From NCBI RefSeq assembly GCF_000025345.1, contig NC_013757.1, positions 2,108,001 through 2,172,000 of the forward strand: DNA of 64,000 bases. Direction: 5' to 3'. The position numbers and the translations under genes were made by a program. The notes under the pieces were generated by a model. The model had not been told where the DNA came from and did no database searches. It worked only from the letters and a program-made list of their open reading frames with translations. Source of the DNA: Geodermatophilus obscurus DSM 43160 (GTDB lineage Bacteria > Actinomycetota > Actinomycetes > Mycobacteriales > Geodermatophilaceae). This document shows, in pieces, positions 18,025-63,644 of the stretch (positions are counted from its first letter, which is position 1; each line of letters starts with the position of its first letter).

Positions 18025-18098
18025 AAGGACCCTCCTGCCCCCCACCGCTCGCAGGCTCGCGGCGGGGCCCTGCAGGAGGGCCGTTCCAGCCTGTCACC
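18025..18098 (+). repeat. Interspersed hairpin repeat, copy 1 (after whiA)
   Basis: The repeat begins right after the whiA stop. The outer stem is CCCTCCTGC (18030-18038) with GCAGGAGGG (18072-18080). The inner arms CCCCACCGC and GCGGCGGGG pair with one mismatch around the conserved CTCGCAGGCTCG core. The tail GTTCCAGCCTGTCACC follows. It belongs to an eight-copy family in this window. Confidence 0.8.
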
Positions 18099-18130
18099 GG
18101 CCCGGGTCGCCCTCCCGGGCGACCCGGGCC
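18099..18130 (+). terminator. Strong hairpin terminator between whiA and gap
   Basis: GGCCCGGGTCGCCC and GGGCGACCCGGGCC form a perfect 14-bp stem with the loop TCCC. Together with the repeat before it, this should end transcription from the uvrC-whiA cluster. Confidence 0.75.
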
Positions 18131-18148
18131 GCGTCGTGTCCGGACCGA

Positions 18149-18154
18149 TAGGGT
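18149..18154 (+). promoter_or_regulatory. Candidate -10 element of the gap operon
   Basis: TAGGGT fits TANNNT and lies about 90 bp before the gap start, just after the terminator. No clear -35 is visible. Confidence 0.3.
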
Positions 18155-18241
18155 CAGTCCCCGGTGAGGTCGCGCACGCGTGCGGCTCCTGCAGCTCCAC
18201 CGACTAGACGAGCTCCACCGAACAGACATGGGAGGTCTGCT

Positions 18242-19246
18242 GTGACCGTACGGGTGGGCATCAACGGGTTCGGCCGGATCGGGCGCAACTTCTGGCGCGC
18301 GGCCGCGGCCAGCGGCAAGGACATCGAGATCGTGGCGGTCAACGACCTGACCAGCCCCGAGGTCCTGGCGCACCTGCTCAAGTACGACAGCATCCTGGGC
18401 GTGCTGTCCGAGGACGTCGCCGCCGACGGCGAGGGCATCAAGATCGCCGGGAAGACCATGAAGGTCCTCTCCGAGCGCGACCCGGCCAACCTGCCCTGGG
18501 GCGACCTGGGCGTCGACGTCGTCGTCGAGTCCACCGGTTTCTTCACGAAGGCCGACGACGCCCGCAAGCACGTCGACGCCGGGGGCGCCAGGAAGGTCGT
18601 CATCTCCGCGCCGGCCACCGGCGACGACCTGACCATCGTCATGGGCGTCAACCACGAGAAGTACGACGGCTCGCAGACGATCATCAGCAACGCGTCCTGC
18701 ACGACCAACTGCCTGGCCCCGCTGGCCAAGGTGCTCAACGACAGCTTCGGCATCGAGCGCGGTCTCATGACCACGATCCACGCCTACACCGCCGACCAGA
18801 ACCTGCAGGACGGCCCGCACAAAGACCTGCGCCGCGCCCGCGCCGCCGCGCTCAACATGGTCCCCACCTCGACCGGTGCGGCCAAGGCCATCGGCCTGGT
18901 CCTGCCCGAGCTGCAGGGCAAGCTCGACGGTTACGCCGTCCGCGTCCCGGTGCCCACCGGCTCGGCCACCGACCTCACCGTCCAGCTGTCCCGCGAGGTG
19001 CCGGCCGACGAGATCGACGCCGCCTACCGCGAGGCCGCCGCGGGCCCGCTGGCGGGGATCCTCAAGTACACCGACGCCCCGATCGTCTCCTCCGACATCG
19101 TCACCGACCCGGCGAGCTGCATCTACGACAGCAAGCTCACCAAGGTCTTCGGCCCGATGGCCAAGGTGCTCGGCTGGTACGACAACGAGTGGGGCTACTC
19201 GAACCGGCTCGTCGACTCCGTCGAGCTCGTCGGCCGCTCGCTCTGA
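18242..19246 (+). CDS. gap: Glyceraldehyde-3-phosphate dehydrogenase
   Basis: This NAD-dependent enzyme converts glyceraldehyde 3-phosphate to 1,3-bisphosphoglycerate in glycolysis. It has 334 residues with the Rossmann motif [12 protein letters not shown], the catalytic NASCTTNC (Cys153), the base in [14 protein letters not shown], the phosphate site [15 protein letters not shown] and the C-terminal [14 protein letters not shown]. The GTG at 18242 has GGAGG upstream. It leads gap-pgk-tpiA, with gaps of only 11 and 15 bp, so one operon is likely. Confidence 0.98.
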
Positions 19247-19257
19247 CGCGGCGCGCC

Positions 19258-61916: not shown

Positions 61917-62043
61917 GGACCACCCTTCCCCCCACGCCTCGCGGGCTCGGACCAGGCCCCGTCCAGCGGCTCGCCGCGAGCGTGCGAGGGGTGCGGGGGA
62001 CAGGGTCCTCCTACCTGGAGGGTGGCCGTTCCAGCACCTCACC
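61917..62043 (+). repeat. Interspersed hairpin repeat, copy 7 (after the acyl-CoA synthetase), with a nested copy
   Basis: The outer copy has arms GGACCACCCTTCC (61917-61929) and GGAGGGTGGCC (62017-62027), with CCCCACGCCTCGCGGGCTCG after the left arm and the tail GTTCCAGCACCTCACC at the end. The middle, 61955-62008, is a second copy in reverse orientation, similar to the plus-strand text of copy 4 (GGCCCCG, CTCGCCGCGAGCGTGCGAG, GACAGGGTCC). One repeat therefore appears to sit inside another. Confidence 0.7.
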
Positions 62044-62133
62044 CGGCCGGCGCGGGACGCTGCAGAGGGGCGCCGTCCTCCCGACCCGTCGCAGACCGGG
62101 GCCTGCCTCTGACACCCCAGTTCCGGCGGTGGC

Positions 62134-62151
62134 CTCCCCCCATGGGGGGAG
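62134..62151 (+). promoter_or_regulatory. Perfect 18-bp palindrome upstream of the NlpC/P60 gene
   Basis: CTCCCCCCATGGGGGGAG is its own reverse complement and lies 91 bp before the GTG of the hydrolase gene. It could be an operator or the core of a promoter region. Confidence 0.45.
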
Positions 62152-62241
62152 TGTCCGCTCAACCGCTTCCCTGATCTTGTCGTTCCGGCACCGGAGTGCG
62201 CATCCGGGCGCCGGTCGACGAGGTCGTGAGGAAGGTCGGAC

Positions 62242-63585
62242 GTGGGCAGGACGGACGAGCGGGAGAGCCATCCGAGGCGTTCCGGGTGGCTGCTGCGCGG
62301 AGCCGGGACGGCGGTCACCGCCCTGGTCCTGGCCGGCCTGGTGCCCGGGACGGCCGTGGCCGCTCCCGGGGACGACCAGGTGGCCGCGGCCCAGGCCGAG
62401 CGGGACGTCGCGGCCGCGCGCGTCGGCGAGATCGGCGCGCAGCTGGCGGCGGCCCAGGAGCGGGTGGACGCCGCCCGTCGGGGTGCGCAGATCGCGCTGC
62501 AGGAGTACGAGGTGCGCCGCGCCGCCCAGGAGGAGGCGCGGGCCACCGCCGACGCCGCCGCCGCGGCCGCCGAGCGGGCCGCCGCCGAGCTGCGCCGCGG
62601 CCGCGACCAGGTGGTCGCCTTCGCGCGGTCGAGCTACATGCAGGGCAGCACGAGCCCGGGGGCGGCCGCGCTGGTCACCGCCGAGGGGCCCGCGCAGCTG
62701 GTGCAGCGGGCCGCGCTGCTGGAGGCCGCGGGCGGCCACCGGGCCGACGTCGTCGCCGAGCTGACCGTCCTGGAGCAGGAGGCCGCTGCTGCCGACGACG
62801 CCGCGCAGGTCGCGGTGCAGGCGGCCGGTGCGGCCGAGGCCGCGGCGGCGGAGTCCCTGGCCAGTGCGCAGTCGCAGGAGGTCTCGGCGCGGGCCCAGGC
62901 CGCCGAGCTCGCCGACCGGCGCGAGGTGCTGGAGGCCGAGCTCGCGGAGGCCCAGGAGGTGCTCTACGGCGCCCAGGGTGCGGCGGCCGCGGCTGCTGCC
63001 GCAGAGGCCGCGGCGGGGGCGGCGCAGGCCCACCCGCCGGTGGCTCCGCCCGTGCAGAGCAGTTCGTCCCCCCGGTCCTCGTCGAGCACCTCGTCGTCCG
63101 GTTCGTCCTCGTCGTCCTCCGGCGGTGGGGCGCCGACCGGCACCGGCACCACGGCCGGCGCGCCGACGGGGTCGGTGGTGGACCGGGCCATCGCGGCGGC
63201 CGTGAGCCAGCGCGGGCTGCCCTACAGCTGGGGTGGCGGCAACGGCAACGGCCCGACCTACGGCATCCCGCCGGACACGGCGATCTACGGCTTCGACTGC
63301 TCGGGGCTGACCGAGTACGCCTACGCGCAGGCCGGCATCCGGATCGGTGGCACCAGCCGCGAGCAGTACTGGCGCTTCCGCGACCGGACCGTGGCCGCCG
63401 ACGACCTGCAGCCCGGGGACCTGGTGTTCTGGGGCGAGACCGCGGACTACACGTCGATCTACCACGTGGCGCTCTACATCGGCGGCGGCCAGGTGGTCCA
63501 GGCACCGCAGAGCGGGGACGTCGTGCGGATCTCGTCGATGTGGTTCGGCAGCGACTACTACGGCGCGGTGCGGCCTACGGCCTGA
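62242..63585 (+). CDS. Secreted NlpC/P60 peptidoglycan endopeptidase with coiled-coil domain
   Basis: The 447-residue protein probably cuts peptide stems of peptidoglycan outside the cell. It has a basic N-terminus and signal peptide (TALVLAGLVPGTAVAAPG, cleaved near 41), and a long Ala/Glu-rich coiled coil (about 45-260). Then come a Ser/Pro/Gly linker and the NlpC/P60 domain (from about 312), with YSWGGGNGNGP, the nucleophile in FDCSGLTEYAYAQAG and the His in IYHVALYIGGGQVV. The layout matches RipA/PcsB-like hydrolases, whose coiled coil keeps the enzyme inactive until bound at the divisome. The GTG start has GGAAGG upstream. Confidence 0.93.
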   Translation: MGRTDERESHPRRSGWLLRGAGTAVTALVLAGLVPGTAVAAPGDDQVAAAQAERDVAAARVGEIGAQLAAAQERVDAARRGAQIALQEYEVRRAAQEEARATADAAAAAAERAAAELRRGRDQVVAFARSSYMQGSTSPGAAALVTAEGPAQLVQRAALLEAAGGHRADVVAELTVLEQEAAAADDAAQVAVQAAGAAEAAAAESLASAQSQEVSARAQAAELADRREVLEAELAEAQEVLYGAQGAAAAAAAAEAAAGAAQAHPPVAPPVQSSSSPRSSSSTSSSGSSSSSSGGGAPTGTGTTAGAPTGSVVDRAIAAAVSQRGLPYSWGGGNGNGPTYGIPPDTAIYGFDCSGLTEYAYAQAGIRIGGTSREQYWRFRDRTVAADDLQPGDLVFWGETADYTSIYHVALYIGGGQVVQAPQSGDVVRISSMWFGSDYYGAVRPTA

Positions 63586-63586
63586 C

Positions 63587-63644
63587 GAAGGACCACCCTC
63601 CCCCCACGCCTCGCGAGCTCGGCGCGGGCCCCTGAAGGGTGGCC
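63587..63644 (+). repeat. Interspersed hairpin repeat, copy 8 (after the NlpC/P60 gene)
   Basis: GGACCACCCTCC pairs with GAAGGGTGGCC around CCCCACGCCTCGCGAGCTCG and GCGGGCCCC. The tail GTTCCAGCACGTCGAC follows. It begins two bases after the stop. Confidence 0.8.

Follow-up and report, generated by a model that had tools for sequence, protein, structure and literature searches.

We have examined a 64,000-nt stretch of the chromosome of Geodermatophilus obscurus DSM 43160 (NC_013757.1, positions 2,108,001 to 2,172,000; the window) in which a palindrome some 56 nt long stands behind eight genes; it has two stems, a bulged A and co-varying arms. We believe that this repeat is probably a non-autonomous mobile palindrome that is restricted to one bacterial family, resembles the repetitive extragenic palindromic (REP) sequences, and inserts preferentially behind stop codons. 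Repeats behind stops are often read as functional 3' elements, and a first-pass annotation of the window had read this one as a terminator or a stabiliser of RNA 3' ends. Here, relatives show presence/absence insertions, and a test in convergent gaps favours targeted insertion over selection.

The intact unit starts with a 5' purine foot, GAAGGACC or GAGGACC. The outer stem carries its bulged A after GG, the inner stem has the form CCCC-A-CCNN / NNGG-C-GGGG, and the loop is a conserved 10-nt sequence, TCGC(A/G)(A/G)GCTC. On the 3' side a short CCCTG forms an asymmetric internal loop, followed by the 3' foot GGCC. The tetramers that lead the repeat (positions -4 to -1 in 117 copies) were AGAA, GGAA, GAAA, GAGA, CGAA and AGGA. 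The genome is one contig of 5,322,497 bp and holds the exact core pattern 51 times in forward and 59 times in reverse orientation, compared with 0 for the reversed control. A scan with a covariance model, as the annotation had suggested, was carried out with a model built from 59 copies and gave 102 matches in 0.864 Mb (E up to 0.01). By extrapolation, the whole genome would contain about 630 copies. The whole-genome model count of 153 is a lower bound, with 150 of 15,617 candidates scored. In the window there were nine model matches at eight places, because copies sit inside copies. The copies are as follows:

18026..18084, plus strand: copy after whiA (stop 18022-18024); 81.8 bits in the model; GG foot 2 nt past the stop; tail present
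23425..23541, plus strand: composite after secG (stop TGA 23418-23420), read from the sequence; left half of the host copy, inserted copy, right half of the host copy, tail
23448..23504, plus strand: copy nested within the loop of the secG host; 54.8 bits
24016..24074, plus strand: copy after rbpA; 80.7 bits; offset 2 nt
30712..30769, minus strand: copy after tkt; 66.3 bits; GG foot 11 nt past the stop, preceded by a partial foot duplicate
34312..34370, plus strand: copy after ctaB (UbiA family); 70.7 bits; offset 4 nt
45679..45737, plus strand: copy after a sufT-like gene; 77.7 bits; offset 4 nt
61917..62043, plus strand: interrupted host copy after an acyl-CoA synthetase gene (stop TGA 61911-61913), read from the sequence
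61952..62010, minus strand: copy inserted in the acyl-CoA synthetase host copy, in the opposite orientation; 58.8 bits
63588..63646, plus strand: copy after an NlpC/P60 gene; 68 bits; offset 4 nt; tail present

All eight places named in the first-pass annotation hold this one repeat family. The annotation was right about the places and wrong in counting eight single copies: those behind secG and the acyl-CoA synthetase gene are composites. The secG host copy begins 4 nt past the stop. The acyl-CoA synthetase host copy gives a weak model match (61916-61973, 22.9 bits) and picks up again, with its 3' arm and tail, at about 62016. As the copy inserted in this plus-strand host lies on the minus strand, the copies of the window are not uniformly oriented, contrary to what had been stated. 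The placement directly after stops was borne out, except that the tkt copy stands 11 nt away with the partial foot duplicate between. Another hairpin-like stretch, which is diverged and follows the acyl-CoA synthetase composite (62060-62112), gave no model match at E up to 1.

Position relative to stop codons was scored for 95 of the 102 model matches (E up to 5e-5), 91 of which are intergenic. In 45 of these 91 copies the GG foot lies 10 nt or less past a same-strand stop (one overlaps the stop by one base). Random placement of copies in intergenic gaps put 2.6 there on average and never more than 11 (2000 draws). The offsets are sharp: 20 of the 45 stand at exactly 4 nt and 18 at 0-2 nt, and 43 fall at 0-2 or 4-6 nt. 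None of the 91 intergenic copies lies within 10 nt of an opposite-strand start. The biases towards gene ends and towards one strand that had been seen in the window thus extend to the larger set. Placement reflects more than a taste for the letters TGA: copies occupied 45 of 783 stop triplets, compared with 20 of 2083 non-stop intergenic triplets of the same letters (Fisher p ~1e-12) and 0 of 13,842 coding triplets of the stop letters. With a looser copy set, 29 of 782 stops and 17 of 2092 intergenic triplets were occupied.

In convergent gaps 21 of 34 copies stood at a stop, whereas the null distribution had a mean of 10.4 and a maximum of 18 (5000 draws); 8 of the remaining 13 copies were nested-like. 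Because convergent gaps hold no promoters, selection against other positions is a poor explanation of the stop bias. The same placement was seen in relatives. At the orthologous ends of whiA, secG, rbpA, tkt and ctaB, 50 of 364 genome-by-gene cases had a copy 0-10 nt past the stop; within the 400 nt that follow, 9 cases had a forward copy at another position and 9 had a reverse copy. L074, with a reverse-orientation copy behind tkt, is an exception to the orientation rule. Three other copies (L086 2395-2452, minus strand; L099 2173-2231, plus strand; L134 1764-1823, minus strand) abut CTAG/CTAA-like letters, beside apparent TTAGG...CCTAA sequences that resemble an iron box.

Two kinds of observation suggest that the repeat has moved. 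One is nesting. Among the 46 intergenic copies that are not stop-adjacent, 18 stand behind the left half of another copy, and in 12 of these 18 the host lies 1-5 nt past a stop. The 3' half of the host loop, sought in four spellings within 30 nt of the insert, was seen behind 0 of 18 inserts. Read by eye, the composites at 4475386 and 4328544 have lost the whole loop CTCGCAGGCTC and those at 4666932 and 4348512 its second half, and the right half of the host resumes behind. Since one and the same composite is found at several loci, composites may themselves be units of spread too. The other observation is the empty site. By comparison of flanks, 26 of 83 copies had a strict empty site in a relative, defined by flank identity and length limits with no element core left in the interval, and in 22 of these 26 a stop-like triplet stands 0-6 nt in front of the copy. 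The strict count is used because a first count of 50 of 83, based on a short interval in some relative, included intervals that held another copy. At an orthologous stop the arms of copies differ between species, which implies either repeated insertion or turnover. The annotation had reasoned that a mobile repeat would scatter; judging by its nested copies and empty sites, this repeat looks mobile and yet is oriented. Copies in L128 (+12759) and L074 (+12803), considered as coding insertions, proved on translation to lie at an apparent junction of two genes that we take to be opcA and pgl. Unrelated palindromic repeats also occur behind whiA in relatives: AGACGTCCGCGACGTCT in L092, L103, L118, L121, L122, L126 and L130, GAGATCGCCGATCTCG in L090, L110 and L138, and GTCCTGGCTCACCGT in L104 and L112.

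Pairing of the arms is maintained by joint change, as had been claimed from the window. Copies were chosen by core, feet and length, with pairing left out of account. Over seven arm positions the share of paired cells was 89.1% in the 51 copies from the genome itself, compared with 67.3% (maximum 74.8%, 1000 draws) when the right arms were dealt among copies. In 50 copies from relatives the corresponding values were 92.6% and 63.5% (maximum 72.6%, 1000 draws). The model alignment had 128 compensatory cells compared with 38.5 expected, with an outer helix that was picked with pairing in mind. The pair of columns 16-43 does not form in 51 of the 59 sequences and does not belong to the structure. 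Of 841 arm cells flanked by good pairs (173 copies), 7 would be G.U in the sense RNA and 21 were of the complementary kind, i.e. G.U or G.T only in the other strand, in what is a small sample of related copies. This asymmetry speaks for a hairpin in DNA or for copying that is symmetric. It disfavours selection for a hairpin in mRNA, because such selection predicts the opposite asymmetry, and it weakly predicts that a binding protein would prefer the bottom strand.

The tail, which had been described as a frequent feature, belongs to a minority of copies. This 16-nt sequence, GTTCCAGCACGTCACC, adjoins 13 of 95 model matches compared with 1 of 95 shuffled controls. It matches 69 times in the 0.864 Mb, and 56 of these matches do not adjoin a copy that the model finds. 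Of those 56, 45 lie within predicted genes and look like chance, while 10 of the 11 intergenic ones stand behind an interrupted or tandem copy.

The repeat appears to be confined to the Geodermatophilaceae. Its exact core was present in 96 of 112 genomes of the family, with G057 having the most (138). From 397 genomes drawn from the order, 322 are outside the family, and the core matched at most 2 times in any of these, compared with up to 4 matches for the reversed control; diverged relatives of the repeat may be missed because the core pattern is exact. In 80 loci around zwf from Geodermatophilus, Blastococcus, Modestobacter, Klenkia and other relatives, the model gave 110 matches in 46 loci, with none in the four Klenkia loci.

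Based on these results, we propose a model for the spread of the repeat. The moving entity would be a hairpin, and recognition would depend on the shape of its stem and loop, as it does when REPs transpose; the mobiliser would be a hairpin-recognising activity other than a Y1/RAYT enzyme, the transposase associated with REPs. Insertion would favour the bases that immediately follow a stop, the 5' foot facing that stop, and the target may be stop-proximal or single-stranded. Selection would remove most insertions in genes. More speculatively, the preference for stops may stem from the nucleic acid becoming ribosome-free there. The specific idea that a non-Y1 machinery targets the site 3' of stops in the sense orientation, perhaps via a ribosome-free R-loop or single-stranded DNA, and equally targets the repeat's own hairpin loops, is one that we put forward tentatively. 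By analogy, in mRNA the hairpin would begin inside the footprint of the terminating ribosome, where it may act on termination or recycling, or on 3' decay of the preceding gene; a host effect of this kind, as for E. coli REPs near stops, is plausible.

Several points weigh against the proposal of a mobile palindrome that targets stops. No mobilising enzyme came to light. The first-pass annotation had suggested looking for a RAYT/Y1 transposase gene, and this enzyme (PF01797) was found in 0 of 112 family genomes, the repeat's own genome included, with 5 of 14 control genomes positive. A reverse transcriptase scored over the cut-off in 48 of the 112 genomes; as a mobiliser it was rejected, for it does not track copy number and is missing in the copy-richest genome, G057. 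A search of the 0.864 Mb (16% of the genome) for distant arms that pair revealed no long parental element: among the 13 candidates listed above 90 nt, the short ones (97-132 nt) were nested composites, and the longer ones look like chance pairs or interrupted copies. Nine genes are flanked by copies on both sides, and none was transposase-like by eye in its first 200 residues. At filled and empty sites no clear target duplication was apparent by eye, without a systematic count. The insertions were compared between species and so speak of past rather than current movement. As to placement, gene ends came from a purpose-built simple gene finder (864 kb, 785 genes), which recovered the stop for 7 of 7 window genes checked. 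Four of the 95 model matches overlap predicted genes, 28 of the 91 intergenic copies are neither stop-adjacent nor nested, and in the looser copy set 3 copies lie behind 13,805 coding triplets. When the comparison is restricted to non-stop triplets in convergent gaps (5 of 269), the contrast at stops is modest (p 0.008). Lastly, positive selection for stop adjacency is possible; in its sole test, copy preservation, no advantage was seen (stop-adjacent copies, median 64 bits; others, 68 bits; p 0.28), and this gives no sign of stronger selective maintenance.

Three other explanations were weighed. If the repeat inserted without a preference for stops and selection spared the least harmful copies, just behind stops, coding DNA would be nearly free of copies, as it is with 4 of 95, and copies would also be found at a CTGA that is not a predicted stop, as in L128 (+12759) and at 2209092, which is 249 nt from the nearest upstream gene. 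We nevertheless regard this explanation as unlikely, because an excess at stops persists in gaps that hold no promoters, the offset is sharp and the orientation is fixed. A different explanation is that the element is a classical REP, spread earlier by a RAYT/Y1 transposase which later disappeared from the family. Its size class, copy number, palindrome, nesting and purine foot directly 5' of the hairpin resemble those of REPs, and the available text of PMC3733652 describes CGTC REPs without a linked transposase. However, the enzyme was found in none of the 112 genomes while 5 of 14 controls were positive, the foot GAAG/GAGG is neither GTAG nor CGTC, and the patchiness of the repeat from species to species suggests that it moved when the family already existed. 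We therefore think such a history improbable.

The reading of the first-pass annotation, in which a functional RNA element (a terminator or 3' end stabiliser) is placed and kept behind genes by selection, draws on the gene-end and strand bias, the stable stems and the compensatory changes. The different arms found at the same stop in different species also fit it, as does PMC1590033, the available part of which reports stable stem-loops preferring the 50 bp after stops in many prokaryotes. In addition, the composite at 61905-62040 folds better than shuffles as RNA (z -3.16). But the longest T-run in the 14 nt after the hairpin was 2 in 91 intergenic copies, and for 24 of the 45 copies next to a stop the following gene is on the same strand, in one case only 14 nt away. 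Convergent neighbours adjoin 21 of the 45, compared with 186 of 481 gene ends with gaps of at least 40 nt, which is no marked difference. Five simple copies folded whole gave z-scores of -1.63, -1.49, +0.62, +0.20 and +0.31, and the secG composite -0.16; single-copy folding energy is uninformative at this G+C. Stop-adjacent copies were not better preserved, sense G.U cells showed no excess, and the repeat is distributed patchily among relatives. The evidence does not support a terminator role, and although some RNA role is possible on the sequence, we see little chance that selection for such an element accounts for the placement. Thus, we favour a mobile palindrome that inserts behind stops.

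Among the genes of the window, Pfam identified WhiA, RbpA, UbiA (CtaB), the FeS-assembly P domain (SufT), the AMP-binding enzyme and NlpC/P60. SecG and Tkt are names that we presume for genes that were translated, with no family search made. The annotation knew of no named family for the repeat, and in agreement with this no copy in the window matched Rfam at the gathering score; at a relaxed threshold the whiA copy had two matches, both far below gathering. The sole Rfam match in the window was a guanidine-III riboswitch elsewhere (54094-54157, minus strand, 64.4 bits).

We found no published description of the repeat in the open-licence literature of PubMed Central (PMC), which does not prove that none exists. 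The available text of a paper on Geodermatophilaceae (PMC9686282) mentions palindromic repeats for CRISPR only. The closest comparison is with the REPs of E. coli, which are likewise short, abundant extragenic palindromes, many of them directly behind stops. In the available part of PMC12306157 (RepRanger), 446 of 4,072 REPs are counted within 15 nt of a stop; for E. coli the same text refers to earlier studies, according to which ribosomes stall at REPs that lie within 15 nt of a stop, and 260 of 496 REPs are proposed to act on translation. The Geodermatophilus repeat differs from these in its sequence, its length (about 56 nt, two stems), its sharp 0-6 nt offset and its presence in the loops of its own copies, and no Y1/RAYT enzyme was found for it in the 112 family genomes. 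The available text of PMC3733652 describes GTAG- and CGTC-tagged super-families of REPs, high-copy palindromes in several phyla, with repeats of 20-40 bp and stems of 5-13 bp; the words Actinobacter and Geodermatophilus are absent from it. Our repeat is similar to these as a high-copy palindrome with, as in the CGTC families of that text, no linked transposase, but its foot, GAAG/GAGG, is neither tag.

Like an intrinsic terminator, the repeat is a G+C-rich hairpin just behind a gene. Unlike one, it has no T-run in 91 copies, is patchy and nested, and has a conserved 10-nt loop. It shares with miniature inverted-repeat transposable elements its small size, inverted arms and non-autonomy; its arms vary from copy to copy, however, and no parental transposase was found in the part searched. 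The stem-loops of PMC1590033, for which the available text argues roles at the RNA level, share its preference for the region behind stops. Of the features by which RAYT-REPs are defined, the repeat has the high-copy extragenic palindrome, and it differs from them in two, the tag and the enzyme. It points to a further mobilising activity in a family where the known REP enzyme was not found. In sum, the repeat resembles REPs behind stop codons, and it makes testable an old question: why REP-like palindromes crowd behind genes.

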